Source of the DNA: a virus
IMG/VR virus record: IMGVR_UViG_3300045931_000004
Coordinates: 1 to 26,105 of that record
Direction: 5' to 3' (one strand)
Length of the DNA stretch: 26,105 nucleotides
Every line of letters starts with the position of its first letter. Position 1 is the stretch's first letter. The notes below the pieces were generated by a model, which saw only the letters and a list, made by a program, of their open reading frames with translations, had not been told where the DNA came from and did not search any database. Below are positions 1 to 26,105 of this stretch, piece by piece. Both the position numbers and the translations under genes were made by a program.

Positions 1-1810
1 TCTTACCACCAATTTCACCTAATCCCATACTCGACAGGTCAATCTGAGGCATAAGCCTCTGCATTAATACAATATACTGTTGGAAACCACCATAGGGGTC
101 AATCCTAGTGTTTCCAATTTTAGGTTTACCAAAGTCGCTAGATGCCGGGTCTGTTTCGACGGTAGCTCCACCCAATCTCATTAACTGTGTGAAGGTTCCT
201 GCTGTGCCAGCAATAGCAGCTAGAGATTTCAGGTATTCCCTACGCACGCTAGGTTGGGATATCATGTAGACTTCGGGACTGAATAATGCTTGTGTTCCTT
301 TAGCCATCATGCCTAGGCGCGAAGCTATAAGTCTAGGAGAAAAGAGAACAGTAGACAGAGCCTTAGCAGAAGGCTCTAGTTTACCTAAGTCCCCACGACC
401 TGTAGCGTTATTTACAAACTCAGCAATCTCCTTACCAAGCTTGACGTTATTACGCATATTGGTGCCAGATGTGACACCATAATCTTGCGTCATCTGTCGG
501 AACGTATCTGCTCTCAACTTATTCAGGAAAGCTGTATACGCTCTGTTAGACCTACGCACGCCGGGGATTTGTTCGGCGATTTTAGACATCATAGTTTCTT
601 CACGATTAGTGAAGTTATTCAAATCAGTTAGCTTTAGACCTACATCCTCTGCAAATGATGGTTTTACGTTACCATCAGCAGTGACCCTCTTTTTGAAAAT
701 TGGGTCGTCAAGAATACCCTTCTGAATAGCGTTATAGGCATCTTCAGATTTCCATGCCCTAAACATATCCGGAAGGGAATTCCAGAATTCTTTACGATGA
801 ATAAGTCCAATCCCTTGTCGAAGTGGAGCAGACATATCCATAGACGCCATAATAGTGCGAGGCACATTAGCAGCGTCCATCCACGCATTACTTTCTACTT
901 CAGGTGGTTCTGGCATCTTAGGTTGGGGTGATTCCCTAACCTTCTTCATTACTATCTTACTGCCATCACCTGCTAGTTCCTGGTAGTCAAATCCTAGTTT
1001 AATAGCATCAGTCAATTGCCTACGCGTCATACTTGAAGCACTAACTGTATATTTAGTCCCTACTGGAACTGCTCTCATTTTGGCAAATTTATCAATCATT
1101 TCAGAAGTATCAGGAGTAGTAGTTCCTTTCATTTCTGCAGGCTTATTCTCCATAGCATGTTTGAAGGTTTTACCCTGCTCTGGAGTCAAAGGCTTTTCGG
1201 GAGTTTTCCAAAAATCAGGTCCAAATGATTCTGGAGTAATAGCTCCCTTCTTACCTTTAACATTATCAGCAATATTTGACATGCCGGGGGTATGTCTCAT
1301 ACCACCCACACCACCAGCCATTTCAGCTAATCCAAATCCTCTTTCTGCAAGTGTGGATTCAGGTGATAATACATTACCAGCACCATGCGCGGCTGTTAAT
1401 GCACCAGCAGCCTTACCACCCATGCTCGCTAATTTAGCAACTTGAGGAAGACCAGCTTTCATAGCCATACTACCACCACCAGTTAAAGCAGTAGTAGCTA
1501 GGTCAATAGGAGATGTAAATCCTGAAATTACATCACCTAATCCTTGAAGTGCGCCAGCACCAAAACCTTCAATTTGAGCGCGTAGAGGACTACGCTCTAA
1601 AGAAGGTCTATCTATGTAGTCTGCAAGACCACTCGCAAATTCTGAGGGTAATGTAGTAAGTGGTTGAGATATAGCATCCCATATCCCACCTAACATAGAT
1701 GGCTGTTGAGTAGGTGCAGCGGGAACAGTTAGTGTGGGACGTGTATCATCTTCCCAATCATTAACATCTTCCCAATCGTCAGGTTGTTGTGTTAGTTGAC
1801 GATTTGCCAT
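1..1810 (-). CDS. Large internal-virion / polyvalent-type protein, C-terminus cut by the left edge
   Basis: The frame is open from an ATG at 1810 to the window edge, giving 603 visible residues and no stop. Residues 1-30 are acidic and polar (DDWEDVNDWEDD). About 80-160 are Gly/Ala-rich with weakly amphipathic helices, 300-500 are charged helical sequence, and near the edge (about 62-160 in the DNA) comes the string SSDFGKPKIGNTRIDPYGGF followed by QQY. From memory that DFGK...GNTR.D..GGFQQY pattern recurs in the C-terminal part of very large phage polyvalent or ejection proteins (an LPD-type domain); I cannot confirm the family by search. The start overlaps the end of the upstream gene by 19 bases and has only a weak GGGAA-like ribosome site. 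As the last and longest of three consecutive Ala/Gly-rich proteins it fits the place of a T7 gp16-like ejection protein. Function is inferred from position and composition. Confidence 0.72.
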   Translation of the reverse strand, partial: MANRQLTQQPDDWEDVNDWEDDTRPTLTVPAAPTQQPSMLGGIWDAISQPLTTLPSEFASGLADYIDRPSLERSPLRAQIEGFGAGALQGLGDVISGFTSPIDLATTALTGGGSMAMKAGLPQVAKLASMGGKAAGALTAAHGAGNVLSPESTLAERGFGLAEMAGGVGGMRHTPGMSNIADNVKGKKGAITPESFGPDFWKTPEKPLTPEQGKTFKHAMENKPAEMKGTTTPDTSEMIDKFAKMRAVPVGTKYTVSASSMTRRQLTDAIKLGFDYQELAGDGSKIVMKKVRESPQPKMPEPPEVESNAWMDAANVPRTIMASMDMSAPLRQGIGLIHRKEFWNSLPDMFRAWKSEDAYNAIQKGILDDPIFKKRVTADGNVKPSFAEDVGLKLTDLNNFTNREETMMSKIAEQIPGVRRSNRAYTAFLNKLRADTFRQMTQDYGVTSGTNMRNNVKLGKEIAEFVNNATGRGDLGKLEPSAKALSTVLFSPRLIASRLGMMAKGTQALFSPEVYMISQPSVRREYLKSLAAIAGTAGTFTQLMRLGGATVETDPASSDFGKPKIGNTRIDPYGGFQQYIVLMQRLMPQIDLSSMGLGEIGGK

Positions 1811-3126
1811 GTTTTCCCACCATCGTAAGATTCACGAACCTTACCAGTGCTAGGACTTCTCTGACGCTTGTGGTTAGGATTATTAGGATTAAATTTAGTG
1901 GTAAGTGGTTGTGTCCCAGTTCCGAGAGTATTACTACGAGTAGCTGAGACAGGAATGTCAGTTCCATATATTGCATCAGTTATTTTTTTGTGTTGTTCAG
2001 CAGTAGGACCAGAACGCCATCCAGATGCAGGAGGCATAACAGTAAATTCATTTCCCGGAGTAAATTGAATATATTTACCCAGTTCGGGATTTTTAGTTGC
2101 AAATTCCCTCGCTGCTGTAGCTTGTCTAACTTTAGTCTGTGTAGGTAATTCACCTCTACCCGCACCAGTTGTAGTTCCGGGTTTAACTAGTGTTCCTTCT
2201 ACATTCTGAACTGGCTTAGTTTCACCAGTTATCTGATTGACAAGAATGGTCTTACCATCAGCAGTATTAAAGGCTGTCCAGCCTCTAGTTTCTGCTAATG
2301 CTTCACGACCACCCTGTCTCATACCTTCAAGAGTTTCACGTCCACCCTGTCTTACACCTTCCAGTTCAATAGCATTCTCCTGTCCAAGTGCCATCTTATC
2401 AGCATCGGACAGAGAACCAGTATCGATATCAGTCTGCTCAACCTTGCCAGTAGCAGGGTCAGTAACAATAACTTTAGGACCACTAAAGTCAAACTTGAAG
2501 TTTCCCCGCAGAGACTTAAGTCTGTATACTTCAGCACGGTCCTGCATTATCTTAGTTCTGGCAGCATCTTTTTCTGCACGCGCTTGGTCTGCTGCTGACA
2601 GTCTTTCCTGTGTTACAACAGATGTAGCTAGTTGACGATTACTAGCATTAGACTGTCTCTCAAGAGATGCTGCATCTTGAGCAGAACCAATCTTATTTTT
2701 CCAATCTGCAAGTTTTCGACTCCTATTACCTTCGATAACTTGCATACCAGTTCCAGGTCTGTGAAGGTCTGCTAGTGTAGCTCCAATAATGCGTAACCAG
2801 TTAGGTTTCTGAGCTTCGGGATATTCTCCGAGCATCTGATTAAATCTATCTTGAGCCATAGTTTCTGGCTGATAGAGTTCTCGCATTCTGGCATCTACAT
2901 CAAATCCACCCATAGGCTGAGATTGCACAGGTGCCATAGGAATGTCTTGAGGCATAGCCTGATTCATAGATGGCCCAAATGATATATTACCAAATGGGTC
3001 ATTCTTTGGCCCCATTATATTTGGATTTTGTTGGGGCATAAAATCACCACCAGCAAATCCGGGTGCTGTTATTTGTGGGGCACCGAATAAATTTTGCAAT
3101 CTCAGAAATTGCATTAAATCAGGCAT
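1792..3126 (-). CDS. Predicted internal virion / ejection-type structural protein (444 aa)
   Basis: I do not recognise a named family. The N-terminal 80 residues are rich in Pro, Met, Gln and Asn and look disordered. Residues about 85-205 are charged and helical (many Ala, Arg, Glu, Gln), with coiled-coil character around 150-205. Then come a short beta-like part (FDFSGPKVIVTDPATGK, about 213-229), a duplicated 11-residue unit (255-276), and a polar C-terminus ending in YDGGKTWQIVN. The ATG overlaps the upstream gene by 8 bases and follows an AGGTG ribosome site. Its place between the S74-ending protein and the very long polyvalent-type protein, with similar composition, suggests a DNA-ejection or internal core protein like T7 gp14/gp15 in role. 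That role is inference; the reading frame is firm. Confidence 0.7.
   Translation of the reverse strand: MPDLMQFLRLQNLFGAPQITAPGFAGGDFMPQQNPNIMGPKNDPFGNISFGPSMNQAMPQDIPMAPVQSQPMGGFDVDARMRELYQPETMAQDRFNQMLGEYPEAQKPNWLRIIGATLADLHRPGTGMQVIEGNRSRKLADWKNKIGSAQDAASLERQSNASNRQLATSVVTQERLSAADQARAEKDAARTKIMQDRAEVYRLKSLRGNFKFDFSGPKVIVTDPATGKVEQTDIDTGSLSDADKMALGQENAIELEGVRQGGRETLEGMRQGGREALAETRGWTAFNTADGKTILVNQITGETKPVQNVEGTLVKPGTTTGAGRGELPTQTKVRQATAAREFATKNPELGKYIQFTPGNEFTVMPPASGWRSGPTAEQHKKITDAIYGTDIPVSATRSNTLGTGTQPLTTKFNPNNPNHKRQRSPSTGKVRESYDGGKTWQIVN
2299..2364 (-). repeat. 33-base tandem duplication inside a structural gene
   Basis: Two adjacent 33-base units encode LEGVRQGGRET and LEGMRQGGREA (residues 255-276 of the 444-residue protein). 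They differ at a few positions only, and a decayed continuation (LAETRGW) follows. This looks like a recent in-frame tandem duplication lengthening a helical stretch. Confidence 0.8.
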
Positions 3127-4465
3127 TTTTCACCTGTTCTTTCTGAGACGCCAAAACTACTCCCATTACATCGGCAAGGTGTAGAGTCTTTCCATCACCT
3201 ATACCAAATTTCTTTTTGAAATCCTGTGCCATTGGTCCGAAATGCTTGGTATCGTCACCCTTATATTTCCAAGTATATAGCTGAAGTTCATTCAGCTTTT
3301 TAGTGAAAGGACTACCCTTAATAGTGGACCCTCTCCCAACAGGCTTAATATGGTCTTTCATAGCCCGCGAGGAATAAGCAAAGATATTATCCATGCTTGG
3401 TTGATTCAGATTGATATTGCCAAATTGATAATTAGGATTCACAGGATTGATATCCTGTTTCATATTTCTGTCGGAGAATGCCATACCTACATATGGCGCT
3501 GCTGCTCCGGCAATACCAATAGCTTTCTTCCACCAAGGTTCACCCTCAGTAGCTTTATCAGTCTGATATCCACGCATTTGGGCATCAAGTAATCCAAGCC
3601 CAAACTGATTACGTGCTTGCTCCATACCTGCACGCTGTTGCCATGCATTAAGAGCCTGATTACCAAACATATTCGACATTCCGGGAGTAGTTCCATATAG
3701 TGATGCTTGACCACCAATACCAGCCAACTGCATCTGTCTGAGATTCTGTAGGGATTGTTCTCCCATCTGTTGAGCTTGCAAGTCTGCACCCTGATTAGCC
3801 ATTGCAGCTTGTAACATTCTGCCAGCTTCAGCAGATGACAAGTTACCCATAGCAGAACCAGTTCCAGTAATACCTTGTAAACCAAACATTTTACCCTGAC
3901 GAATGGAATCTGCTAGACCGGCGTTAACCGTAGTCATAGCATCAGCCATTTGTCCGGGTAAATCCCTCTGTGCTCTACTTGCAGCAGCAATATAGTTAGG
4001 GGCACCACCACCCCCACCTAATGACCTTGCTCTGTCAAGTTCCATCATGGTATTTCCATACGCAGCACGTATGGGACTAATACCACGCGCACGTAGTTCC
4101 TGAATATCAGTAGGTGAGTATCCACCTGTAGAGGCGAAGTCACGATATCCCGGCATTGCTTCATCGAGATATCCGTATGCTTTGCCCAATTCCTTGGGAC
4201 GTTGAGCAGAAACCTTCTGATACGAAAACTGAGAAGGTCCACCTAATCCCTCGCGGAACTGTTGATACGCGCCCATGATATTACCATAATCCTGTGTATT
4301 TTGCGTCACAGCATTATTGTAATTCGTCATGAATTGGTCACTAATAGGCCCATACGCAGCCTCATTAGCACTAGGCTGTTGCGTATTTTGATACGCAGTT
4401 TGAGCCTGATTTATTACTTCTTGAGCAGGATTTTGTGGTTGTTCTGGCTGCTTTTTCTTTCCCAT
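3119..4465 (-). CDS. Ala/Gln-rich internal virion-type protein with C-terminal S74-like intramolecular chaperone
   Basis: Residues 1-310 are polar, rich in Gln, Ala, Gly, Asn and Met, and mainly helical, unlike a beta-helical fibre. A short hydrophobic stretch (WWKKAIGIAGAAAPYVGMAF, about 309-328) is followed by SDRNMK (331-336) and, 34 residues later, SSRAMK (365-370). The rest (about 375-448) resembles the Peptidase_S74 / intramolecular chaperone domain: a helix with KKLNELQLYTWKYK, the HFGPMAQDFKKKFG strand, and a closing helix with DVMGVVLASQKEQ. In that family cleavage occurs before a Ser that pairs with a Lys five residues on, and both copies here keep Ser-x4-Lys. The start is a TAATG overlap with the GNAT-like gene plus a GAGGATAA ribosome site. 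S74 domains usually end tail spikes and fibres; here the partner looks like an ejection protein, so virion placement is inferred. Confidence 0.75.
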   Translation of the reverse strand: MGKKKQPEQPQNPAQEVINQAQTAYQNTQQPSANEAAYGPISDQFMTNYNNAVTQNTQDYGNIMGAYQQFREGLGGPSQFSYQKVSAQRPKELGKAYGYLDEAMPGYRDFASTGGYSPTDIQELRARGISPIRAAYGNTMMELDRARSLGGGGGAPNYIAAASRAQRDLPGQMADAMTTVNAGLADSIRQGKMFGLQGITGTGSAMGNLSSAEAGRMLQAAMANQGADLQAQQMGEQSLQNLRQMQLAGIGGQASLYGTTPGMSNMFGNQALNAWQQRAGMEQARNQFGLGLLDAQMRGYQTDKATEGEPWWKKAIGIAGAAAPYVGMAFSDRNMKQDINPVNPNYQFGNINLNQPSMDNIFAYSSRAMKDHIKPVGRGSTIKGSPFTKKLNELQLYTWKYKGDDTKHFGPMAQDFKKKFGIGDGKTLHLADVMGVVLASQKEQVKNA

Positions 4466-4842
4466 TATTTTATCCTCATACTCAACGCTGTATGTGGGTG
4501 CTTCTCAAATCCATGTTGGATGAGATGCTTGGCGTAATCACCATTATTCACAAAAGCGTAGAGTTCTTTTATTCCAAAAGTCTTAGCCGTAAATTCGGAA
4601 ATAGCCTTGGCTTCTAACAAAGCTCTACCAATTGTAGTAAGTGGCTTTGATTTGTCAGTAACTAAAACTACTTCCCCTACGTGCTCGACAGCACCACCCA
4701 TTACAATATCGCCTTTATCATCCTCTATGACAAAAGCGTTCAACATTTGAAGAAACACTGGAAATCCGAATTCAGGATAATATTGCTCATGAAGTCGAAT
4801 TAGTGATTCTAAGTCTTCAACGCGTAATGAGCGGGATTTCAT
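4465..4842 (-). CDS. GNAT-like acetyltransferase family protein
   Basis: The 125-residue length and order of elements fit a short GNAT fold: an opening helix-turn with LRVEDLESLIRLHEQYYPEF, a central strand pair AFVIEDDKGDIVMGGAVEHV, then EVVLVTDKS leading to TTIGRALLEAKA, which takes the place of the acetyl-CoA loop and following helix. The strands KELYAFVNNGD and GFEKHPHTALSMRI at the end match the usual GNAT C-terminus. The canonical Q/RxxGxG/A loop is weak, so catalysis is uncertain. The ATG overlaps the endolysin stop as ATGA and has no good ribosome site, so it is probably translated by coupling. Small GNAT-like genes of unknown substrate are common beside late genes in environmental phages. 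Target unknown. Confidence 0.6.
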   Translation of the reverse strand: MKSRSLRVEDLESLIRLHEQYYPEFGFPVFLQMLNAFVIEDDKGDIVMGGAVEHVGEVVLVTDKSKPLTTIGRALLEAKAISEFTAKTFGIKELYAFVNNGDYAKHLIQHGFEKHPHTALSMRIK

Positions 4843-5189
4843 TTTCTATTACCATGCATGATAGAGTAATGGTTGCCATCCCCAAAATGACCACCCCAAG
4901 CAGTAACAAAATCTTTGCCAGCACTTAGTGTCTCCCAGTATGTGCCTAAAGCACGATGAGATTCTGTATCAGTCAGATATTTACCATCTCTGAAAAGATG
5001 GATATCAATTGCGAGTCCAATTGAATGTAAAGAGTTTTTAATACCTTTTCCTAATTTAGCTAAACGTGCAGCTTCTTCAGGACTACGGTAAGCTTCGCCA
5101 AGTTTATATTGATATCCTAATCTCTTGGCTTCTGCCAAAAGAAAAGGAAGTAACTCAGCGAATGCAAACTGTTTCTGAAGAAGTGTCAC
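4839..5189 (-). CDS. M15-family peptidase, probable endolysin (peptidoglycan L,D/D,D-peptidase)
   Basis: The 116-residue protein carries the M15 zinc pattern: SLHSIGLAID (53-62) matches SxHxxGxAxD with His55 and Asp62 as ligands, and WGGHFGDGNHYS (98-109) provides the third ligand His107. The motif GEAYRSPEEAARL (31-43) matches the family's usual xxYRSxEE region. These single-domain peptidases cut peptide cross-links or stem peptides in peptidoglycan and often serve as the phage lysis enzyme. There is no signal peptide, so release would need a holin, and none lies next to it. The start is GTG, chosen because AGGAAG sits seven bases upstream and because GTGA overlaps the stop of the previous gene. 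Function is well supported by motif; the use in lysis rather than entry is inferred. Confidence 0.88.
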   Translation of the reverse strand: MTLLQKQFAFAELLPFLLAEAKRLGYQYKLGEAYRSPEEAARLAKLGKGIKNSLHSIGLAIDIHLFRDGKYLTDTESHRALGTYWETLSAGKDFVTAWGGHFGDGNHYSIMHGNRK

Positions 5190-5512
5190 GCAAGCACTTC
5201 CTCATCACCATCGATAGTGAGAGTAAGAATGTTATTAGTTCCGGCAAACGCCTGAATTATTTCAGTCGTAGCCAAGATATAATAACAATAATGGTCCAGA
5301 ACTTGATTCGCACCAATGCTGAAAGCATCGAATAATCTTGTGCCAGCAGCATCAGCACCAATAGACATAGTGAAAGTAACTGCAGAACCGCTTGGATTCT
5401 GGACGTGAACATGCCTCACAATTCCTCGTCTATTGGCGGGAACTGTATACTTAGTCGCAGCAGCGTTAGAAACTTGCGCGGGACCAGCCATGCGAACTTG
5501 AACTTTTGCCAT
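5186..5512 (-). CDS. Small conserved beta-rich virion protein (108 aa)
   Basis: The sequence is mostly short beta strands: KYTVPANRRGIVRHVHVQN, AVTFTMSIGADAAGTRLFDA, and a closing ILTLTIDGDEEVLA. The pattern 'TVPA..R.IVRHVHV.N.SG...TF..SIGADAAGTRL.DA' recurs, to my knowledge, in small proteins of phage tail and fibre clusters whose role is not settled. It lies between the fibre-tip gene (eight-base gap) and the endolysin (GTGA overlap). An AGAGGG ribosome site precedes the ATG. A tail-associated structural role is inferred from this position; there is no catalytic motif. Confidence 0.65.
   Translation of the reverse strand: MAKVQVRMAGPAQVSNAAATKYTVPANRRGIVRHVHVQNPSGSAVTFTMSIGADAAGTRLFDAFSIGANQVLDHYCYYILATTEIIQAFAGTNNILTLTIDGDEEVLA
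5197..5202 (-). promoter_or_regulatory. Ribosome binding site deciding the GTG start of the endolysin
   Basis: On the minus strand AGGAAG lies seven bases before the GTG at 5189. It supports a GTG start over any internal ATG in this frame. Confidence 0.65.
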
Positions 5513-5520
5513 TTTGCCCT

Positions 5521-5949
5521 CTAATTGTCTGTCAGATATGGCATTGTAAAACTAAATGCCGTATCATCATTTAGGTCAGCCTCAGCTAATGCAGTATCAA
5601 GTGACCCCGCTGCCGCTGTATTTATTCGAAGGGTAATGTTATCATCACCCTGTATCATTGCACCTTGAACGATTATGATAGAAGTCGCTAAACTAAACCA
5701 GTTAACTGCACATACTGAACGATAGTTAGTAAACTCACTAGTTACAGGAAATGGAATGCCTTGTATTTCAACTTGTCCAGTAATTGTGCCTTTAGCAGAA
5801 AGTTGTAGCACCCCAAATAATGTTACTAGTTTACCGAACTTAATCCACTGACCGTCTTGAAAATTATAGGTTTGTCCGGAAGCTCCCCCAGACCCACCAA
5901 TAGTAGGTGTCCAAAGTCCATATTGTGGAACGATTAATTGACCATACAT
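5521..5949 (-). CDS. Tail fibre tip / receptor-binding-type domain protein (142 aa)
   Basis: After a short lead ([11 protein letters not shown]) comes LWTPTIGGSGGASGQTYNFQ, then DGQWIKFGKLVTLFGVLQL and GQVEIQGIPFP. This 'GxWTPTIGG...Y..QxGxWxKxGxxVTxxxxL...GxxxxxGxPFP' layout is the familiar C-terminal domain of many phage tail fibres, usually the last trimeric part of a longer chain. Here it stands alone. An ATG at 5985 in the same frame would add 12 residues, but I prefer 5949: it forms TAATG with the collagen gene's stop, and its product begins directly at the domain. It is therefore probably made by re-initiation on the collagen message. I infer that it binds the end of the collagen-like fibre or the tail protein. 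Receptor unknown. Confidence 0.68.
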   Translation of the reverse strand: MYGQLIVPQYGLWTPTIGGSGGASGQTYNFQDGQWIKFGKLVTLFGVLQLSAKGTITGQVEIQGIPFPVTSEFTNYRSVCAVNWFSLATSIIIVQGAMIQGDDNITLRINTAAAGSLDTALAEADLNDDTAFSFTMPYLTDN

Positions 5950-6703: not shown

Positions 6704-9578
6704 CTATATACCCCGTTTTGGCTACAGGTAAAATAGGCACATCTACACTAGGTTGCCCTGATTGAGTATCCTGTAGCGTATCATTCAGCTTGCCAGGAAC
6801 TAATGTGTAAATACCACCTACATCCTGCAACATTAATCGTGGTGCATCTCCATTAAATTCAAGTCCACCATCACCAATAATGATGATATCAGCTAATGGT
6901 GGAGAAGGAGGCGTTCCACCGGGAGGAACACAGTATGTAGGCCAATAAATACCATTGGCCATTGACGCATGGTCACCACAAAGAGCGAATACTGTGTATG
7001 TAACACCATTAGCATTTATTGAAGATTGAACAGTAATTTGGTCTACTGCAACAGCAGTAATACCAGTCGTAGTATTACCAAAATTAGACGAAGTAGCACT
7101 ATTGTTTCCGGCATGTGATGGGTCACGGAAGATTCCATTACCACCAGATGCTTGAACCCACACAAATAGTGGGAATCTACCAGATATAGGAACAAGTGGA
7201 ATATTACGTGGATTTACACCATTACCAACATAAGTGGTTAATTGAACCATTATGTTAGCACATCCACCAACACCCGAATCATTAGTTCGCCATAGTGAAT
7301 AAGCAGTATTACTCTTATTACCAGCCATGAAATGCACGCCATTAAAAGTATTTAGAACTCCTATACCAAAGTTACATCCATTGGCAATATTACCAGCACC
7401 ATCTAACCGAATCATTGTATTACTACCAATGCCCGGTCCTTTTATATAAAGTCCATTGCCAGTAAATCCACCAGATTGAACCAAATTATCTTGAATAATA
7501 CCAAATTCAGCAGTAAATCCCGGTTGTGGGATAGTATTAACTTGTGGTGTGGGTGCTGCAAATGGATGATTAAATGCACCACACATATTAAATCTCGCGT
7601 CTGGGTCACAGAACACGATATATTGATAAGTAATACCATTTTGGTTTATCATTGAATCTGCACTATTAATCTGCAACTTAAATTGAGCCGTAGCAGAATC
7701 AAAGTATGCGCGTATTACTGGAAGCACATCATTATTTTGACGCATCGCGCCTAATGATGTAGCAAGCCAGAGACAACCCGCAGAAGTAGAAGTATTACGA
7801 ATATAGACGAAATGAAAAGCACTAGGTAATATGATGTTCTGTGTAGTTCCATTACCTACATACGTTCCACCTACGTTAAATTGCGCTCCCGATGGAAAAG
7901 AAGGCCAGAATCCATATTGAGTATTTGGATAATTGCAGTTATGGATAAGAGTTCTATCCATTGGTATAGTAATATCAGGTGCATCTTCCGGTCCCCATAG
8001 ACCTAAATATTCAACACACGCTACTGTAGCAACAGTTGTATCAGTATTACCATCATTAGATTTAGTATGAATAACTGAAAATGGAGCTATCTCATCAGGT
8101 ATATCCATACCTGTTGGGAGATATCCCATAAATGAATTAGTATTGCTACCAAATTGGTTAATGGTAACTTGAGTTACCGCACCACCAGCTTTACGATAGC
8201 CTAATTGTCCATCACTCGCGCCTGAATTTCTGCCATAATGTGAAATTACAGCAGCAGCGGCACCTAATACAAATCCCGGTGGTCTATCCTGATTACTCTG
8301 TAATGGAGCATCAGTCAAACCATCTATTTGTGCAAGTGCAGTCGAACTAACTAAAGTGACACCAGTTAGTGTTGCCTCGCGCGAAGGATTGATATCCTGA
8401 TTTAGACTACCAAATGAATTGGGAGTCCAATTAGTTAAACTTGCAGAATTACTGACTACCCTACGAACATGACTGCCAAGTAGCCAGTCAATAGGATAAT
8501 TAGTATCATTGAATGTTAGTGTAAGAGGATTCATATTGGCTGGAATATCCGCGCCAATCCAGTCATCGAAGTCAATTTCAGCAAGATTCGTATTAACAAA
8601 TTGTTGACCAAATATTATTGAAACAATATTCGTTCCAGTTGAAATTCCCTCACCAGTATTATCAGTAAAGCCTAATGCAAAAACTCCATTTATATAAACT
8701 TGAACTACTCCATTAGTAGTAGGGAAACTTCCTGAACGGGACAATACATCAAATCGATACCATTGTCCTACAACAGGAGTAAACACTACTCCTTTATCAA
8801 AATAAGTGCCAGCATTATTTATATTAAATAGTTTTACACTACCAGTAGATTGATAGATTAATTGCGCGCCCATAGATGCACCAGCACTACAGGTAACACG
8901 CCAAAATCCAACATCTGACGTAGATGCTGGTGGTGGAACTCGCGCTCGGAAGTAAAATCTATCCCAATGGGTTTGAGGGACTAATCCTGCCCTCAACATA
9001 ACCATTGTATTAGTCATGAACCTATTATTAGGTCCACCTGCGCGTAATCCACAACCATCCATTACACGCGAGGCATCTCTACTAAAGTCAGGAGTAGCGT
9101 TACCAGATGAACCATCTAATTCTGAGCTATGTTCAAATCCACACACCCACCTACGTTGTGAGATGTTATTAGCAGGTGGTGTGATACCTGAACCTGCACC
9201 CTGAAAATGTATAAGAGTAGCAGACCAAACGTGTAAACCATCTGGTCCAGCAGGAAATATTGATGGAGGATTTCCAGCCTGTCCGGGAACTAATACAGAC
9301 CCTACAGTAGGGTCCATAAAAATACCAGATGGACTTGGAAAACCAATTTCTGAACCTGGAGGTTCGAGATTGCTATATGGTGGAGTTGTATACATTCCTT
9401 TTGGAATTAAAGCTATATCCCCCGATGGAAGGGGATTATATGGAATTCCAAAAAGTGCAGCTGCGTCAGCAGGACATATTTCCAGAATAGGACTGCCAGC
9501 TACAGCGACAGCAGCTTGATATTCTGCTTGGTCCTGAAAGAAAATGACGTAGTTGACGTATACAGTAATCTGTGCCAT
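6696..9578 (-). CDS. Large tail adhesin / spike-like protein with concanavalin-like fold (960 aa)
   Basis: This is the longest complete gene here. Residues about 1-60 may bind the particle. About 115-350 have the look of a LamG/concanavalin A-like lectin domain: FEHSSELDG, YFRARVPPP, VGFWRV, GQWYRFDVLSRSG, VVQVYINGVFALGF and a closing DFDDWIGADIP. About 350-530 form a second region (NWTPNSFGSLNQDINPS..., SHYGRNSGASDGQLGYRKAGG). Two related beta-rich units follow at about 570-670 and 780-878, each opening with TYVGNG and closing with NxNG(I/V)TY...F.CxD...M. The last 80 residues include DIIIIGDGGLEFNGDAPRLM. Asn, Gly, Thr and Ser are abundant, as in secreted-like fibre domains. It is TAATG-coupled to the preceding tail gene. 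The role as host-binding tail protein is inferred from composition, lectin-like layout and location. Confidence 0.72.
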   Translation of the reverse strand: MAQITVYVNYVIFFQDQAEYQAAVAVAGSPILEICPADAAALFGIPYNPLPSGDIALIPKGMYTTPPYSNLEPPGSEIGFPSPSGIFMDPTVGSVLVPGQAGNPPSIFPAGPDGLHVWSATLIHFQGAGSGITPPANNISQRRWVCGFEHSSELDGSSGNATPDFSRDASRVMDGCGLRAGGPNNRFMTNTMVMLRAGLVPQTHWDRFYFRARVPPPASTSDVGFWRVTCSAGASMGAQLIYQSTGSVKLFNINNAGTYFDKGVVFTPVVGQWYRFDVLSRSGSFPTTNGVVQVYINGVFALGFTDNTGEGISTGTNIVSIIFGQQFVNTNLAEIDFDDWIGADIPANMNPLTLTFNDTNYPIDWLLGSHVRRVVSNSASLTNWTPNSFGSLNQDINPSREATLTGVTLVSSTALAQIDGLTDAPLQSNQDRPPGFVLGAAAAVISHYGRNSGASDGQLGYRKAGGAVTQVTINQFGSNTNSFMGYLPTGMDIPDEIAPFSVIHTKSNDGNTDTTVATVACVEYLGLWGPEDAPDITIPMDRTLIHNCNYPNTQYGFWPSFPSGAQFNVGGTYVGNGTTQNIILPSAFHFVYIRNTSTSAGCLWLATSLGAMRQNNDVLPVIRAYFDSATAQFKLQINSADSMINQNGITYQYIVFCDPDARFNMCGAFNHPFAAPTPQVNTIPQPGFTAEFGIIQDNLVQSGGFTGNGLYIKGPGIGSNTMIRLDGAGNIANGCNFGIGVLNTFNGVHFMAGNKSNTAYSLWRTNDSGVGGCANIMVQLTTYVGNGVNPRNIPLVPISGRFPLFVWVQASGGNGIFRDPSHAGNNSATSSNFGNTTTGITAVAVDQITVQSSINANGVTYTVFALCGDHASMANGIYWPTYCVPPGGTPPSPPLADIIIIGDGGLEFNGDAPRLMLQDVGGIYTLVPGKLNDTLQDTQSGQPSVDVPILPVAKTGYIGG

Positions 9579-9988
9579 TAGAATAGGCTCTGAGCACTCA
9601 ATTTCGGAAGAATTTGAATTTTACTTCCGGCAACTGGAACAAATGGAACATTTGCTGGTGGAAATCTTTCAGCCCACATGAGTTTTCCATCACTATTTCT
9701 AGTGACAAAATACCCATATATCGTTCCCGGACCAGCAATTGCACCAGTAAAATCAAAACTTTGCATAGCATTGTAAGTAGCGATAGAAGGGTCGCCAGAT
9801 ACAATACCCCAATTTGCAAAGGTTAATGGTTTTGATGTATAACCACCACCTGAAATTTCGGTAAAAGATGCAGCAGTTGACGCACCCGTAGGTGTGACGT
9901 TATTACCATATATCTTCATCGTCAAAGCTGGAGTCAGAAGTGTTGTTAACACTTCGACTTCTAGCGCATTCGGAATAACTTGTGGCAT
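9578..9988 (-). CDS. Small conserved tail protein (136 aa)
   Basis: The product begins MPQVIPNALEVEVLTTLL and contains LTMKIYGNNVTPTGASTAASF, a tight Gly-rich turn GGGYTSKPLTFANWGI, and TIYGYFVTRNSDGKLMWAERF. I recall this arrangement (L.L.L..NN.TP...T....F.....GY....L....W...YGY.V.....LLWAERF) from small proteins beside phage tail fibres, but no function is known to me. An upstream TTG at 10006 would add six residues. I chose ATG 9988 because it follows AGGTG at a good distance and starts two bases after the previous stop. The downstream 960-residue gene is TAATG-coupled, which suggests the two proteins are needed in related amounts. Confidence 0.7.
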   Translation of the reverse strand: MPQVIPNALEVEVLTTLLTPALTMKIYGNNVTPTGASTAASFTEISGGGYTSKPLTFANWGIVSGDPSIATYNAMQSFDFTGAIAGPGTIYGYFVTRNSDGKLMWAERFPPANVPFVPVAGSKIQILPKLSAQSLF

Positions 9989-9990
9989 CT

Positions 9991-11499
9991 TTACACCTGG
10001 TCGCAACCAATAAGAAGCTCATTGATGTTAATCAGAGCCACTGTGTTTACGAATGCCGGGAATGTATATGGACACCAACGAATCTTCTTAGGGTCCAATC
10101 CATTCGCGTAATCTGCAAATAGTATTTGTCTATCAGTAGTTACACAATATAGGAATTGATTCACAGAATCGTTCACAATCTGAATTCTGCGATTATTAGT
10201 CTTGAAAGTCTGACCGACCCAAATTTCCCAAATTTTCCAAGTTAATTCAGGTAGAACATATCTACCATTAAATAGTGTAATTCCAGTATATGTGCAAACC
10301 ATCAGGTAATCTACGTTAGAACTACCTGAATCAATAACAGTAGCAAGACCGTGAACACCACAACCCAACGCGTTATCAACAGCAGTAAGAGGCCATGATG
10401 CTGGTGCGCCACCGTTATCGACAAAACCCACCGTTTTGTTACGTTGCATTGTATACAAAACGTCTCTAAGTTCTGCGATGTTAGTAACAGGATTACCATT
10501 AGGAGGCACCAAACAGAACCCATCTATTTGGTTAATAGCCTCAGGTTCTCCAACTGAACTAACACGGACTATTGAGATGTTATCGTATTCAGTGCAAAGG
10601 CAGAGACGATTATGATAAATGCATAGATTAACTCCAGCTTTGATTTCGGCAAAGTTATCAAGTAGATGAGTAGCATCAAGTAGTAAATCTTGGTCGTAGA
10701 ATGAAATATTACTAAGAGTAGTAACAGTGTTATTCGGAATAGTTGCACCCGGTATAAAAAAGAGTTGGTATCCATTTACGTCACCGTTATAAGTTTGAAT
10801 TACTTTAGAAGCAACAATGTGTTTCTTAGTTACAAATGCATCAGGACTATTAGCAACAGTGCTGAAATCTAGTGCTTGTAATGCGTTAGTAGTAAATGCT
10901 ACCAAACCAGCAGGGGCAGTAAGGTAGCCGGTATCAGTCTCATAAACATAACCAAAAATGTGAACGCCAGCATCAGTATGACCAGCAGCACCATTAGCCA
11001 CAGTAATGTTGACAGTAGGCTTGGCTCCTGCGGCTTTTCTCGCATTAGTTCCATCGCCTTTGTATACATATAAGAACTCATTCTGCATACCACGTTCACG
11101 ATTCAATCCCCCTATTAGTTCTGTGAAGAAGGGAGTGATGTATGCACGTCCGTTATATGGAACAAAGCCGAAATCTGTCATTCCAGCGATAGTGAGAATT
11201 GGACCAAACATCGTAGTTGAATCTACGACATGGTAAATCTCTCCATTAGCACCATTCTTAACTAATACGAGTAGAGTTTGTTTATCGGATGTAGGATAGT
11301 TATACATCCTTAAAACATCAGAAAGTGGACTCGCGATGTTCTGATGACGGTCAATACCATCGCGAGTCCCAAATGCACGGGGACCAATAAACTTTAAGTT
11401 CTGGCACTCAGAAAAATGGTCTAAAGGCGTAGATTCAACATCCTCTTGCGCCCAGAGGCCATTAAATTCTTCCAGAGTTATAGGTTGATGGTCCCGCAT
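9991..11499 (-). CDS. Tail nozzle / stabilisation-type protein, beta-propeller-like (502 aa)
   Basis: The opening ITLEEFNGLWAQEDVESTPL is followed by DHFSECQNLKFIGPRAFGTRDGI. This is the typical start of phage proteins related to P22 gp10 / T7 gp12, which form the lower tail tube or nozzle in short-tailed phages. Repeated short beta blades follow, such as LLVLVKNGANGEIYHVVD, ICLYH-like NLCIYHNRLCLCTEYDNISI, LYTMQRNKTVGFVDNGG, LMVCTYTGITLFNGRYV and FLYCVTTDRQILFADYANG. The length of about 500 residues fits. It lies between the adaptor/decoration genes and the fibre module, as expected for a tail component. Assignment rests on motif memory and position; fold prediction would settle it. Confidence 0.62.
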   Translation of the reverse strand: MRDHQPITLEEFNGLWAQEDVESTPLDHFSECQNLKFIGPRAFGTRDGIDRHQNIASPLSDVLRMYNYPTSDKQTLLVLVKNGANGEIYHVVDSTTMFGPILTIAGMTDFGFVPYNGRAYITPFFTELIGGLNRERGMQNEFLYVYKGDGTNARKAAGAKPTVNITVANGAAGHTDAGVHIFGYVYETDTGYLTAPAGLVAFTTNALQALDFSTVANSPDAFVTKKHIVASKVIQTYNGDVNGYQLFFIPGATIPNNTVTTLSNISFYDQDLLLDATHLLDNFAEIKAGVNLCIYHNRLCLCTEYDNISIVRVSSVGEPEAINQIDGFCLVPPNGNPVTNIAELRDVLYTMQRNKTVGFVDNGGAPASWPLTAVDNALGCGVHGLATVIDSGSSNVDYLMVCTYTGITLFNGRYVLPELTWKIWEIWVGQTFKTNNRRIQIVNDSVNQFLYCVTTDRQILFADYANGLDPKKIRWCPYTFPAFVNTVALININELLIGCDQV

Positions 11500-20861: not shown

Positions 20862-21559
20862 TAGTATCCCTGTTGACCCCTATTTCCAAGCATTTGAGAA
20901 TACATCTGCCAAAATGGCATCATTTGCATCATCATTTGCATAGGGTCGCCACCACCCATTTGCTGTTGTGGCTGTTGTTTTGGAAGTGGCATCCCCTGAT
21001 TATCGAAATGCTGATAGTAGAGAGATGGAGAAACACCGAATGCACCCGGTCCATATTGTGCATTAGCACCCGGACGCTGAGCCATTGAGGAACCCATACC
21101 ACCAGCAGCTTTGAAATCCATCATCCGTCGAAAGTTAGGGTCAACCATACCACCAGCGCCACCGACACGTTTTGGACGTTCTTGTGCGTATCCGCCTGAT
21201 GGTTGCTGCATAAATGATGGTCCCTGCACCATATTGGGATTCATCATTGATGAAAATCCACCCCCACCACCGAATCCGCCAAATCCACCACCCATAGGTG
21301 GAAGATTTCCACGTCCCGGACCTGACGAATTAACCATTCCAAATGGCAAATTTCCCGGTGTATTACCACCAGAAGAATTTGCCATATTAAATCCCGGTGC
21401 AGTAGGAGGCGCACCACTTCCAGGACCATGACTATTAACAAAATTACGTGGACGACCTTCAATACCAGGAGTTCTAGGTCTTCCACCACCACCCCATTCA
21501 CGTTGAACAGGTGGAAGTCTCATTGGATTGTAGCCACCCGGCATAACATCAAGAGGCAT
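20861..21559 (-). CDS. Gly/Pro/Met/Asn-rich low-complexity protein (232 aa)
   Basis: The whole protein is low complexity with hardly any predicted secondary structure: repeats of GGG, GNLPF/GNLPPMGGGFGGFGGG, NSSG and MNPN. A few basic spots appear (RPRTPGIEGRPRNFVNSHG, ERPKRVGGAGG), and the end is rich in Gln and Met (QQPQQQMGGGDPMQMMMQMM). It is TAATG-coupled to the portal gene and preceded by GGAGTG. I know of no function. Disordered Gly-rich proteins next to portals may act in assembly or be packaged. The frame is firm because of the coupling on both sides and the lack of stops over 232 codons. Confidence 0.68.
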   Translation of the reverse strand: MPLDVMPGGYNPMRLPPVQREWGGGGRPRTPGIEGRPRNFVNSHGPGSGAPPTAPGFNMANSSGGNTPGNLPFGMVNSSGPGRGNLPPMGGGFGGFGGGGGFSSMMNPNMVQGPSFMQQPSGGYAQERPKRVGGAGGMVDPNFRRMMDFKAAGGMGSSMAQRPGANAQYGPGAFGVSPSLYYQHFDNQGMPLPKQQPQQQMGGGDPMQMMMQMMPFWQMYSQMLGNRGQQGY

Positions 21560-21726
21560 TATTTCACTCCATGTTTCTTTTTAACGTCATTTGAGGGGCC
21601 AGTATCCAATCCATGTTTATTTGCAGTAGCATAAAAGACTTGTTGTCCCTTTTTGCCACCATATTTCTTTTTCATTTTAGTCATGACTTCTTTGCCATGA
21701 CCTTTGAAATATTCACTTACGGGCAT
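21559..21726 (-). CDS. Small basic conserved phage protein (55 aa)
   Basis: Starting at ATG 21726 the frame reads MPVSEYFKGHGKEVMTKMKK, then KYGGKKGQQVFYATANKHGL, and closes after KKKHGVK with TAA overlapping the next ATG (TAATG at 21559). CAGGGAC precedes the start. The pattern 'VM..MKK.YG.KKG..VFYATANK.G' is one I recognise as a short conserved phage protein of unknown role near portal genes. It is strongly basic, so DNA or acidic scaffold binding is possible. The start lies 14 bases inside the previous gene. Confidence 0.72.
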   Translation of the reverse strand: MPVSEYFKGHGKEVMTKMKKKYGGKKGQQVFYATANKHGLDTGPSNDVKKKHGVK

Positions 21727-22297
21727 TTTGTCCCTGCAATTTCTTTAATGCCGCAGATGATGGTCCAGTTTCTACGTGTGGAGTGTATTTAGGATGTAGT
21801 GCAATATCCCTTCGACCTGTAATTGGGTCTACATAATCAGGAACTTTCAAGCGCGTGGCTCTATCTCTTTCTGCTTGATATGCTTCTAATTCATGTGGAC
21901 GCCAGTAGTATGGATTATTTAGATTTGAAGTCGCAGGAATTCCTTCCGGAACATTCCCACGGTTGAAAAGCATCTCACCTATCTTTTTATACCAAGGCAT
22001 ATCTTGCATTTGCCCGGTATGTGTCATCTCATGAGCAACTATCTGTTCTTTATCGAACTGATTTACACCTTCTAACATAGAAGGATTGTAAATCATGTTA
22101 CCAGACCAAGGATTTGATACAGCATTAGCTCCGCGTGGAGTAAATATTTTGGAAAGCATTCCAGAAGTAGACGAACTTACAGAAATTGGCTTAATGCCCG
22201 GCATCTCCTTAGAAACTTTGGAGTATGCACGTTGCATTGAGTCATCAATAGCTTTATTTTTATCCTGCGGCTTGTCCTTCTCGTTCTTGTTCGGCAA
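21713..22297 (-). CDS. HExxH metallopeptidase-like protein (zincin, 194 aa)
   Basis: The peptidase site is QIVAHEMTHTGQM (85-97): His89, Glu90 and His93 match HExxH. A downstream ELEAYQAERDRA (136-147) supplies a likely third ligand Glu, as in DUF4157-like and related minimal zincins. The N-terminal 60 residues are polar and probably flexible; no signal peptide is visible. The listed start is TTG at 22297, with a weak AGAGAAAG upstream; an ATG at 22237 would give 174 residues and keep the whole site. The stop of the upstream coiled-coil gene overlaps this start region. A role in head maturation, host-protein cutting or ejection is possible, but the usual prohead proteases are serine enzymes. 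I give the family, not the substrate. Confidence 0.74.
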   Translation of the reverse strand: MPNKNEKDKPQDKNKAIDDSMQRAYSKVSKEMPGIKPISVSSSTSGMLSKIFTPRGANAVSNPWSGNMIYNPSMLEGVNQFDKEQIVAHEMTHTGQMQDMPWYKKIGEMLFNRGNVPEGIPATSNLNNPYYWRPHELEAYQAERDRATRLKVPDYVDPITGRRDIALHPKYTPHVETGPSSAALKKLQGQNARK

Positions 22298-22655
22298 TTT
22301 GCAAGTCTTTCTCTAAATCTTCAGTTGAAACTTTCACAACTTCAGAATCAGGTTTTGCCGCATTCTTCAATCGCTGAGCTTTTTCCCTATCTTCAGTTTC
22401 TAATAGTTGCCTACGCACATGCCAAGGAATAGAACGTGGCCTTGTAATCTGTGGAGCCGGATTATCCTTAACAGGTTCAGGCTCTTTTAATAGTTTGTTA
22501 AGTAATTGTGTTTTCTCGTAATTTGAAAACTCAAGTTGCTGTCGAAGTGTCTCACAAGATTGACAAACCTTTTCTTCGACAACAACTTCATTCTTCAACT
22601 TACGAGATTCATACTTTATTTGTAAGTATTCTTTATACCAGTCTAGTAGGAACAT
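22260..22655 (-). CDS. Coiled-coil protein of unknown function with CxxC (131 aa)
   Basis: The N-terminus MFLLDWYKEYLQIKYESRKL is amphipathic, followed by VCQSCETLRQQLEFSNYEKT, a heptad helix containing one CxxC pair, then LLNKLLKEPEP. A Pro-rich hinge leads to SIPWHVRRQLLETEDREKAQ and a charged helical tail. It resembles small terminase-adjacent helical proteins in environmental phages; it could take the place of a small terminase subunit but lacks a clear DNA-binding motif. A very good AAGGAGAAGG ribosome site and a TAATG overlap with terminase support the start. Function unknown. Confidence 0.68.
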   Translation of the reverse strand: MFLLDWYKEYLQIKYESRKLKNEVVVEEKVCQSCETLRQQLEFSNYEKTQLLNKLLKEPEPVKDNPAPQITRPRSIPWHVRRQLLETEDREKAQRLKNAAKPDSEVVKVSTEDLEKDLQIAEQEREGQAAG

Positions 22656-24442
22656 TATGCCCTTCTCCTTCTATGAAATCGACTCACAACTTGCATCTTT
22701 TGTTGTGCTTCGACCATTCGCATATTTCGATAGTATGCCGTAAAATCCTGAGTAGCTTGGAGTTTACGAGTAATTTCTTCTTGTTTCTGAATTCTCTCGA
22801 ACTCAGTTATAGATTCCTCGAAATATCTTTCAGCCTTGTCACAGGCATAACGAATGTCATCATATGGGTCGTCACCATCAAACTCTGCTACGTCTTCAGC
22901 AGGTTTACCACTAGTAGCTTTCTTGTCGTAGCTACAAGCTTTGATGGAATCAATCATAATAGGGCAACAATTTGGATGCCCATCATGATTAGTTTCCTCG
23001 CAACAGAAAATCTGGAGCTTAGGAAGATTAGTTTCCTCTTGTGGAGGGTCGAATAAACTTAAATATGCCTTATAATCGATAAGTCCTTTATTCCGAAGAA
23101 CCCACATTGCATATTCTTCAGAATAAATTGGCATATCTTGTGGTGGAATTACTGGTTTCTGCTTCCACCTCAGATATTCATGTAGTAATAGTTTGCCAGC
23201 TACTCGCGAACCGGGAGAATTATTCGATAATTCAATCGGTCTACCAATAGCAGCTTCAATTTGTTGCTGAATAGTGTGTTCTTGTCCTCGCTCTTGCGAT
23301 ACTGATTTACACCACGCTAGAATTCTTGGATGTTCTCTTTCCGCAACATCCTTGACTTCTGGTGCCCAATCTTCAATCTTGGTTTTTAACCAATAAAGTT
23401 CCTTGTAGAGATAAAGTCGCTTCTGGGGAGATATTGCATAGAAGCCTACATAGTTCATGGCGGCAAATCCCCAATCCCCAATAATCATACGGGGCCACCA
23501 TGAAGGTACTTCAAACGGTGGAACTACGTGTAAAGCATTAGGAGGCTCATCAGGATAATTCTTATCACGGAATTCATCAAAAACTTGTCCCTGATATGCA
23601 TCCCAATCACCGAACTTCCTTGCTTTCCGCTCAGCCTCAGATGGTATACCATCAAGACGTGCAGAATAATCAGGGTCAGCGTTAGGATTATCAGCAACGG
23701 TTGCATGAATATAAATTCGTTTTACGTTTCCTTTACCAAGAATGATTTTCCCACCTTCTGGTGCAGGTTGAACAAATCGCTTCTTAGTAAATGTATGACC
23801 TATTCCGCCCGGCATTCCTGCCGCACGAATTATTGCGGGAATATTTGTAGGGTCAGATGACCTAACGCGAGTAAAACCAATATAGAGATAAATATACTCA
23901 GTAAAGGAAGTGAGTTCGTCCGGAGTAAAGAGATTAATTTCCATTGAGTCATATTTGTGAACATCATTTTCTTCCTCACAATGTCCGAGGAATATCATTG
24001 CACCGGCATTAGACATTCCAGTTCCACCGAACTGGTCCATACGTGGAAACGTCCACGCCATGTCCGTCTTATTAAAAGTAGCCCCGAACTTCGGGTAAAT
24101 TTCGCGCGAACGTGGAACTATCTCATTTCTAAGTTCCGGAAAAGTCCGACGCATGAATACTTGTTTGAACTTAGCATTTTCATGCCACCTATGGATTAAT
24201 CCATATACAAGTAAAACGTCAGACTTACCAGAAGCGTTACCGCCCCCGTAGAATCCCTCGAATATTGAAGTAGGAAGACTTAGGAATTGTTCCTGCTTCT
24301 TATTGGGTTTCCAGAACCCTTTATCAAATGCCATCTTCTTAGTTTGTTCTTTTACTTCTGGAGAAGGTATGACATTTAGCTTCGCACCTAACGCAAAAGG
24401 GACAGCAGCGAATCGCTGTAATAGTTCTCTACGAGTAAGCAT
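22655..24442 (-). CDS. Terminase large subunit (ATPase-nuclease, 595 aa)
   Basis: This is the DNA-packaging motor. The ATPase has Walker A GGGNASGKS (66-74), an adenine-site region with FMRRTFPELR, and a Walker B-like INLFTPDELTSF (169-180) with Asp175/Glu176. The nuclease half starts WPRMIIGDWGFAAMN (316-330) with Asp323 as first metal ligand, and ends with DDPYDDIRYACDKA as the late acidic site. The start at 24442 is well supported by AGGAG seven bases before it. That makes the first 23 residues MLTRRELLQRFAAVPFALGA plus KLN, which look like a twin-arginine signal and precede the usual terminase opening (an alternative Met at residue 37 has only a weak ribosome site). It overlaps the 54-residue membrane-protein gene by 55 bases. 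Confidence 0.9.
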   Translation of the reverse strand: MLTRRELLQRFAAVPFALGAKLNVIPSPEVKEQTKKMAFDKGFWKPNKKQEQFLSLPTSIFEGFYGGGNASGKSDVLLVYGLIHRWHENAKFKQVFMRRTFPELRNEIVPRSREIYPKFGATFNKTDMAWTFPRMDQFGGTGMSNAGAMIFLGHCEEENDVHKYDSMEINLFTPDELTSFTEYIYLYIGFTRVRSSDPTNIPAIIRAAGMPGGIGHTFTKKRFVQPAPEGGKIILGKGNVKRIYIHATVADNPNADPDYSARLDGIPSEAERKARKFGDWDAYQGQVFDEFRDKNYPDEPPNALHVVPPFEVPSWWPRMIIGDWGFAAMNYVGFYAISPQKRLYLYKELYWLKTKIEDWAPEVKDVAEREHPRILAWCKSVSQERGQEHTIQQQIEAAIGRPIELSNNSPGSRVAGKLLLHEYLRWKQKPVIPPQDMPIYSEEYAMWVLRNKGLIDYKAYLSLFDPPQEETNLPKLQIFCCEETNHDGHPNCCPIMIDSIKACSYDKKATSGKPAEDVAEFDGDDPYDDIRYACDKAERYFEESITEFERIQKQEEITRKLQATQDFTAYYRNMRMVEAQQKMQVVSRFHRRRRA

Positions 24443-24552
24443 GTAATGGCTCCTACTATTAATCCCGTCGTAAAAACCACGGCGGTGTAAATTCTGAACT
24501 GCCTAATGGCAATTCTATTCATTAACGCTCTATGAGTTCCCCACATTGCCAT
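24388..24552 (-). CDS. Small single-pass membrane protein (54 aa)
   Basis: The ATG at 24552 forms TAATG with the stop of the glycosidase-like gene, and the frame ends with TAG at 24388-24390. The product opens with a basic stretch MAMWGTHRALMNRIAIRQFR, followed by one hydrophobic segment IYTAVVFTTGLIVGAITCLLV (21-41) and a short polar end. The positive N-terminus suggests a cytoplasmic amino end. It is a candidate holin-like or other small membrane protein, but the size and single span fit many functions. A second ATG two codons in is possible. The last 55 bases also encode the start of the terminase in another frame. Confidence 0.62.
   Translation of the reverse strand: MAMWGTHRALMNRIAIRQFRIYTAVVFTTGLIVGAITCLLVENYYSDSLLSLLR
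24450..24454 (-). promoter_or_regulatory. Ribosome binding site deciding the terminase start
   Basis: AGGAG on the minus strand stands seven bases before ATG 24442, inside the small membrane-protein gene. It supports the long form of the terminase over the internal Met37 at 24334. Confidence 0.72.
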
Positions 24553-26105
24553 TAGATGTTTCCATTCAGAACATACCCAACCATCGTGTCATTACGACCT
24601 TCAAGGTTGAGAGTTCCATTAACAGAAACATTGTATTCGTCAGAAGAATAGTCACGAACATCAGTGGCTTTAATCTTCGCGACTAATCGACTAGTCCCAC
24701 ACAATGTAGAACCGGATTCAGCCGGATTCTTAACGCCATCTAATACTTCGACAAATCGATTACCACTAATTGTGGCATAATTCTTATTAACACTACCCGG
24801 ACCGGACCCTTCCCAAAATCCACCGTTAGGATGATTAACTCGTGGGTCAAGAGGTAGTGGATGATTAGAACGGCCATTATTCACTACTTGCCAATTCTCA
24901 ATTCCTTGAGGTAGGCATACATCTACTTTACGGACGCGCTTCATTATTTCGTCAATACCCGGAACTTCCCACATATTCTGTGGTCTACCGTGGTCTGGGT
25001 CTGCAATTCCAGTAACACCCTGACCTACGTGTAATACGTAAAAAGCTCCAGAACAAACAATACCTGTAGCGCGTGCCATTGCTAGACGTAATGGGTCACT
25101 ATCTTCCGCGACAGAAGATTGTGGACCCTGTGGTTCATTATTGGAAGTAGCTTTGGGGAATTCTTTCAGGTCATATCCCTGTCTTACATGGGACCACTTA
25201 TTATCGTGATTTGACCTGCGCGTATGAACAGTATACATGCTAACCCCAGCCATTTGACTGAGACTAATCATGCCACTGTAAGGACCATCAGGAGAGGATA
25301 GTGCTACTAGATTTGGTGTTTGAGCCATTAAATATCGACCCACATCCACCAAATCAGCAGGAGTAATCTTATCAAGTCTGCCATATTCATTGGCGACTTC
25401 ATAGTGCATTACTTTATTCTCGGCTCCGACCATAGCATTACGAACTTTTTGTTCCATGCCTCTATGGTCGTTATACTTACCGCCGACTAATGTAATTTCA
25501 CTACGCATTCCATACTGGTCGTAAGCTGTATCTACAAACTCACGAAGTATGTTTTCATAGTCGGGCCAGGATGGAAGGATACTCCTACCCTGCCAATTAA
25601 CTTCTCCGAGTATTCTAAGATAATCGAATCCATATTGTTTGAGCCAAGTAAGATGCTCATGGATTCGGTCTCTTTCAAATTTCCATCCATATAGTGCCCA
25701 GAAGAATGTAACACCTAATGGATGAAATAGTCCTGTATCATCGATAGCGCATCGACCATCAGTTCTAACTATTCCCTGTCTAATACCCGGAATAGGAACT
25801 GGTGCTTCTAATGGGATACGCTGAAATTCTTCCCAGACATCCTGATTCATTGTTTGCATCAGGGGAACATCTGGTAAATCAAGCCTCGCGGTAAGGAAAG
25901 TTCCATGATGAGTTTGGATTTTATTCCCAACCCATTTGAAAGCTTCCCACGGACCTATTGCAGTTCTATCTGTGGAAATATGAATTTTATCATCTTCCGC
26001 ACAGACGTAGTTACCCGAATAGGTCTGTAATGCAAACCCACCTTCAGGTAATGATATTTCTTTGAATTCTTCCCAGATATTCTGCGCTGCACGATTACAG
26101 TTGAT
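24552..26105 (-). CDS. Fascin-like beta-trefoil plus clan GH-A-like glycosidase, N-terminus beyond the right edge
   Basis: An ATG at 25859 exists, but the frame is open through all 82 codons upstream to the window edge, so the gene is cut at its 5' end and 517 residues are visible. The upstream part reads like fascin/actin-crosslinking trefoil repeats: FALQTYSGNYVCAEDD, then DRTAIGPWEAFKWVG and THHGTFLTARLD. Repeat ends NIWEEFKEISL and DVWEEFQRIPL match each other. After it comes a TIM-barrel-like enzyme: FHPLGVTFFWALYGW, WLKQYGFDYLRILGEV, and YEVANEYGR with a likely acid/base Glu (codon 25386-25388). TSNNEPQGP carries a likely nucleophile Glu (codon 25134-25136), 84 residues on. The C-terminal 80 residues are beta-rich. 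It may cut host surface or environmental polysaccharide; the substrate is unknown. It is TAATG-coupled to the membrane protein. Confidence 0.75.
   Translation of the reverse strand: MNCNRAAQNIWEEFKEISLPEGGFALQTYSGNYVCAEDDKIHISTDRTAIGPWEAFKWVGNKIQTHHGTFLTARLDLPDVPLMQTMNQDVWEEFQRIPLEAPVPIPGIRQGIVRTDGRCAIDDTGLFHPLGVTFFWALYGWKFERDRIHEHLTWLKQYGFDYLRILGEVNWQGRSILPSWPDYENILREFVDTAYDQYGMRSEITLVGGKYNDHRGMEQKVRNAMVGAENKVMHYEVANEYGRLDKITPADLVDVGRYLMAQTPNLVALSSPDGPYSGMISLSQMAGVSMYTVHTRRSNHDNKWSHVRQGYDLKEFPKATSNNEPQGPQSSVAEDSDPLRLAMARATGIVCSGAFYVLHVGQGVTGIADPDHGRPQNMWEVPGIDEIMKRVRKVDVCLPQGIENWQVVNNGRSNHPLPLDPRVNHPNGGFWEGSGPGSVNKNYATISGNRFVEVLDGVKNPAESGSTLCGTSRLVAKIKATDVRDYSSDEYNVSVNGTLNLEGRNDTMVGYVLNGNI

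Follow-up and report, generated by a model that had tools for sequence, protein, structure and literature searches.

The window, analyzed here at its full length of 26,105 bases, is a separate IMG/VR virus record with a G+C content of 42%. Its features are collected in Table 1.

Table 1. Features of the window (coordinates in nucleotides; aa, amino acids).
Feature	Position	Strand	Remarks
Whole window	1..26105		GATC 0, GTAC 1; uncultured tailed-phage genome fragment, structural region, genes on the − strand
Protein with C-terminal Peptidase_S74 chaperone domain, 448 aa	3119..4465	−	PF13884
Collagen-like repeat protein, 154 aa	5949..6413	−	PF01391 (E 3e-11)
Large tail or fibre-like protein, 960 aa	6696..9578	−	Probable function, from position and size
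Small neighbour of the 960-aa protein	9578..10006	−	Homologues in 8/11 GATC-avoiding and 0/8 GATC-keeping relatives
SU10-type adaptor-like protein, 236 aa	12036..12746	−	PF24175, 26.7 bits vs Pfam cut-off of 27
Glycosyltransferase-like protein, 231 aa	14284..14979	−	Weak match
Methyltransf_24 protein, 184 aa	14958..15512	−	PF13578 (E 1e-14); PHROGs label DNA methyltransferase (phrog_2675)
Major head protein, 420 aa	15850..17112	−	phrog_14242 (E 3e-7); in 19/19 long relatives
Probable portal protein, 793 aa	18480..20861	−	Conserved in long relatives; size and position; no family match
Terminase large subunit, 595 aa, family marker	22655..24442	−	phrog_979 (E 5e-32), PF03237
Sole GTAC	23506..23509		Codons GTA CCT, Val-Pro, inside the terminase gene

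Phage family and host signals

Named phages are only remotely related to the window. In tblastn comparisons, the terminase comes closest to that of Pelagibacter phage HTVC103P (ca. 27% identity), and PolA shows ca. 25% identity to named phages. The terminases of the window and its nearest relatives carry ca. 37 extra N-terminal residues that resemble a Tat signal (MLTRRELLQRFAAVPFALGAK); those of most other relatives align with the window's terminase only from about residue 36–37 (MAFDKGFW). Pfam searches with 20 proteins of the window and 26 of one relative matched no integrase or repressor. The gene product that the original prediction called a methyltransferase does match Methyltransf_24, but it shows no sign of being a restriction-type DNA methylase, with no match to the DNA methylase families PF02086, PF01555 and PF00145.

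Two scans of ca. 85,000 species genomes with terminase profiles (two short peptide patterns each) found no relative. Many, though not all, of the long relatives carry a tRNA-Leu(UAA) gene (for example, at positions 16461-16544 of L089); that of one relative matches plasmids of several phyla, mostly at 75–80%, and points to no clear host. Shine-Dalgarno-like motifs are present ahead of 11 of 25 window genes and ahead of none in the antisense control, which disfavors Bacteroidota-like hosts.

Loss of GATC and GTAC from the window

The original prediction, made by reading the sequence, was that GATC is absent from the window and that a single GTAC remains, in a Val-Pro codon pair of the terminase. 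A machine count gave exactly these numbers and the same position and codons for the remaining site; the near-identical contigs L002–L004 also have one GTAC each. Base composition predicts 96.6 occurrences of either word, and a maximal-order Markov model predicts 87.4 for GATC (z −11.6) and 88.5 for GTAC (z −11.9). Under this model, the two words occupy the bottom two places among all 256 tetramers, the next lowest being AACC (z −6.6), AATT (−4.9), CACT (−4.7) and CTAG (−4.4).

As a codon-preserving null, synonymous codons were shuffled within each of 28 window genes (24,057 coding bases). Here, the expected numbers are 90.5 ± 6.3 for GATC, of which none is observed (z −14.3), and 74.8 ± 6.2 for GTAC, of which one is observed (z −11.9). 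Thus, both words are extreme against both of the nulls that had been proposed as a check. Neither counts near expectation nor an equal depletion of other palindromes was found, since the palindromes next lowest in the shuffle are GGCC (z −3.8) and CTAG (z −3.7). The accompanying claim that other palindromes are common holds for TCGA, which is not depleted in the shuffle, and needs qualification for CTAG (48 observed, 79 expected), which is mildly low, as are GGCC (24/40) and AATT (198/250). With observed/expected ratios of 0/87 for GATC and 1/89 for GTAC, both words of the window fall in the range that defines site elimination (ratio below 0.1 with at least 15 sites expected), and in near-complete relatives the ratios for both words are likewise below 0.1. 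The depletion is specific to the exact words GATC and GTAC and goes beyond composition or codon usage; in the shuffle, the near-neighbour words GAAC and GTTC show no depletion.

The avoidance is apparent in codon choice. In the window genes, Asp ahead of a codon starting with C is written GAC in 69 of 69 cases; ahead of A, G and T, GAT is used 301 times vs 80 for GAC, which agrees with what had been noticed by eye at selected places. In a control with Asn ahead of a codon starting with C, AAT is found 85 times and AAC 10 times. The same proteins are encoded via synonymous codons that avoid GATC and GTAC.

Avoidance across the family and turnover of sites

A scan of IMG/VR retrieved 107 terminase relatives; 80 of these were retained, and later scans brought the total to ca. 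130, with terminase identities to the window of 49–100%. Among the first 80 relatives, GATC is close to zero in nearly all and GTAC in most as well. A tree of 135 rows includes the window. Both words are low in 76 of these rows, GATC alone in 22 (where GTAC has partly or wholly returned) and GTAC alone in 12; both words are kept in 19, and 6 rows are partial. A mixture-model tree of the 79 rows with better counts requires no fewer than 6 changes for GATC and 10 for GTAC, on a topology whose deep forks are weakly supported and with many contigs being fragments.

The range of states can be seen in the long contigs (observed/expected for GATC, then GTAC). Both words are almost or completely missing from G017 (46 kb; 0/175 and 0/138), G014 (0/116 and 0/114) and G004 (1/153 and 1/153). 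G013 (0/167 and 41/141) and G023 (2/135 and 62/125) are nearly or fully devoid of GATC only, G044 has GATC at 201/300 and GTAC at 23/106, and G037 has 156/248 and 158/212. The double loss is thus the rule in a large clade around the window; outside this clade, and at some of the tips, one word or both have returned, for example GTAC at L116/G023 and GATC at L109–L110. Since each avoidance occurs without the other, and each is gained and lost separately, two selective agents are implied. A single cause for both words was rejected because GATC and GTAC vary independently.

Several other properties of the long relatives were observed. G004, G017 and G019 are near-complete. The 6-bp palindromes CTGCAG, CCATGG, TTCGAA and GCATGC are depleted in nearly all family members, and depletion of TTTAAA and AAGCTT is confined to certain lineages; lineage-specific losses of this kind would be expected from hosts whose sets of restriction enzymes vary. 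G019, G037 and G046 have identical ends of 123–127 bases, which suggests complete genomes of 46–47 kb. In the 62.5-kb contig G012 (L085–L088), the tail and PolA regions are doubled, and two related phages were probably merged into this contig during assembly.

The fate of individual sites was followed in pairwise alignments. The window and G004 align over 23,051 bases, 19.9% of which differ. One GATC and one GTAC are present in one genome only, and none is shared; for each of the other 14 palindromes, 28–207 sites lack a counterpart in the second genome. Between G014 and G017, which are 30% apart, there are no one-genome-only sites for either word. In the site-keeping pair G037 and G039, 16% apart, there are 90 such sites for GATC and 103 for GTAC. 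It follows from the near absence of GATC and GTAC turnover at 16–30% divergence that new sites hardly persist in the avoiding clade. We conclude that the avoidance is kept by continuing purifying selection.

Host restriction and other possible causes

A cause encoded by the phages themselves was sought in their gene content. Matches to the DNA methylase families PF02086 and PF01555 were absent from 50 phage records and matches to PF00145 from 27, several of the records being fragments; the positive control genomes matched. The genes present in at least five GATC-avoiding and in no GATC-keeping long relatives are those of the ca. 950-aa tail/fibre-like protein, its small neighbour and two uncharacterised others. 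Of 11 long GATC-avoiding relatives, 10 have a homologue of the window's 960-aa protein; of 8 GATC-keeping ones, none does. The avoidance-correlated genes gave no match to nuclease or methylase families where tested and look structural or are uncharacterised. A gene switch behind the avoidance was rejected on the grounds that only tail/fibre-like, structural or uncharacterised genes correlate with it. The difference in the fibre-like protein fits a difference in hosts, but it is confounded with kinship.

Among 26 proteins from the early region of G004 (L082–L083), there are domain matches to UDG, PolA, SNF2, PD-(D/E)XK, WDGH and cold-shock families. One further protein is a hit to PF24729 (E 4e-16), the Acb2/Tad1 hairpin domain of the anti-CBASS/Thoeris family. 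Small early genes at L083 7619-7861 (− strand; G004 27619-27861) and at L092 3772-4206 (+ strand; G014) have Tat-like N-terminal signals, MVNRRTFLRFLALGVVG and MNRRSFLKSLAVGLTG, respectively. The product of the former groups with the major head protein in BLAST comparisons, as if it were a secreted fragment of the capsid N-terminus.

GATC and GTAC are words commonly cut by bacterial restriction enzymes. For GATC, enzymes of the DpnII/MboI type are the obvious candidates, and for GTAC, nucleases of the RsaI type are candidates. DpnII is described as a GATC enzyme in PMC12707154, and base-excision enzymes of the PabI type are further candidates for GTAC (PMC10273834). Very likely, both words were purged from these genomes by a pair of Type II restriction systems of the hosts, one directed at GATC and the other at GTAC, whose selection continues; this is the only explanation found that fits all the results. 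The original prediction of long exposure to enzymes cutting GATC and GTAC is supported by the specificity of the depletion, by the sparing of near-neighbour words, by its independent variation across the clade and by the near-zero turnover of sites.

Under this explanation, two distinct orthodox Type II systems would be present in the hosts or be picked up by them again and again; the first would cut GATC and the second act on GTAC, in each case when the word is unmethylated. A site born by mutation would lower the survival odds of incoming phage DNA, so that site-bearing variants would be removed and synonymous codons without GATC or GTAC retained. The agents are thus presumed to be host restriction enzymes. 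Judging from the words themselves, the GATC system may be DpnII/MboI-like and the GTAC system RsaI- or PabI-like. Tips with restored sites may have moved to hosts that lack one or both systems. A more specific version, in which the depth and wide sharing of the double avoidance stem from GATC- and GTAC-directed restriction being near-fixed in one host lineage and the GTAC enzyme is of the PabI base-excision type, with none known there, is unlikely. An assembly artefact from restriction-digested libraries was also considered improbable: digestion would break contigs where the sites lie and leave the codons as they are, and relatives in the same collection retain the sites.

Sites could in principle be lost without selection, if host methylation of GATC and GTAC (5mC or 4mC) promoted C-to-T changes. 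The expected products of such erosion are indeed in excess over the codon shuffle (GATT/AATC by 54 and GTAT/ATAC by 38), but excesses are also seen for other one-base neighbours (CTAC by 62, GATA by 45, GAAC by 42, CATC by 35 and GACC by 33), so the excess left by the missing words is distributed across most neighbours and not concentrated in one product. Cytosine deamination was rejected on this basis. In addition, the invariable use of GAC for Asp ahead of C corresponds to the T-to-C direction, and near-zero counts without turnover at 16–30% divergence require the removal of new sites as well. Mutational erosion is therefore exceedingly improbable. A nuclease of the phage itself that destroys host DNA at GATC and GTAC, requiring its own genome to be free of sites, is very unlikely. 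Virus-encoded nucleases attacking host DNA are known in general, and a near-complete relative does encode a PD-(D/E)XK protein. However, a homologue group of similar size (323-aa representative), linked to the PD-(D/E)XK protein by size, is found in keepers and avoiders alike, no avoider-only gene tested has a nuclease family match, and two independently varying words would require two such enzymes.

The remaining two alternatives invoke other host functions. Phosphorothioate-based restriction (Dnd or Ssp) could select against both words, given that GpsATC is a known phosphorothioation motif and that in Salmonella GTAC is a minor one (PMC9521924). The class with the GTAC side motif, however, marks GAAC/GTTC, and these words are enriched in the window instead of being depleted (237 vs 195 expected in the codon shuffle). 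Independent variation of GATC and GTAC also speaks against phosphorothioate-based restriction, as does the fact that clear elimination in a broad survey concerned orthodox Type II sites (PMC6286503), and this alternative is very unlikely. Avoidance driven by MutH, which nicks unmethylated GATC during mismatch repair, has in its favor the toxicity of MutH for phage DNA with unmethylated GATC, cited in PMC4687349. It would apply to GATC only and cannot account for GTAC, whose loss from the window is about equally complete; this alternative is extremely unlikely.

Elimination of restriction sites as such is already known, and the window's family is a clear new case of it. A survey of almost 4000 genomes of prokaryotic viruses with known hosts found Type II site elimination to concern chiefly orthodox sites and non-temperate phages (Rusinov et al. 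2018; PMC6286503). As in that survey, the words eliminated here are 4-bp palindromic Type II words with an observed/expected ratio below 0.1 and more than 15 sites expected; elimination there was seen in non-temperate dsDNA phages, and no match to three main DNA methylase families was found in the phage records searched here. Hosts and enzymes were known in the survey; the elimination described here is traced across an uncultured phage family in which two words are gained and lost separately. HF1-group haloviruses lack GATC and CTAG, which is explained by host restriction (PMC7230728). In that group, as in the window's family, a whole virus group is missing two 4-bp palindromes, but those are haloarchaeal viruses, whereas another family and the pair GATC and GTAC are concerned here; absence of CTAG is not seen in the window, where this word is mildly low, as given above. 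Strong avoidance of GTAC is also known from Helicobacter and Campylobacter, where it is linked to restriction enzymes of the PabI base-excision family (PMC10273834), and PabI-type systems target unmethylated GTAC. There, bacterial chromosomes avoid the word; here, it is avoided by a phage family. No paper on the GATC and GTAC pair in a phage family was found in the literature searched, from which subscription journals are mostly absent.

The case is unusually clean. Since the two words switch separately along the tree, it can be measured how many changes took place and how strongly restriction selects, without a known host. The loss of GATC and GTAC provides a fingerprint for finding the host among genomes or methylomes with both systems. 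The pattern indicates that host restriction has shaped the codon choice of this phage family.
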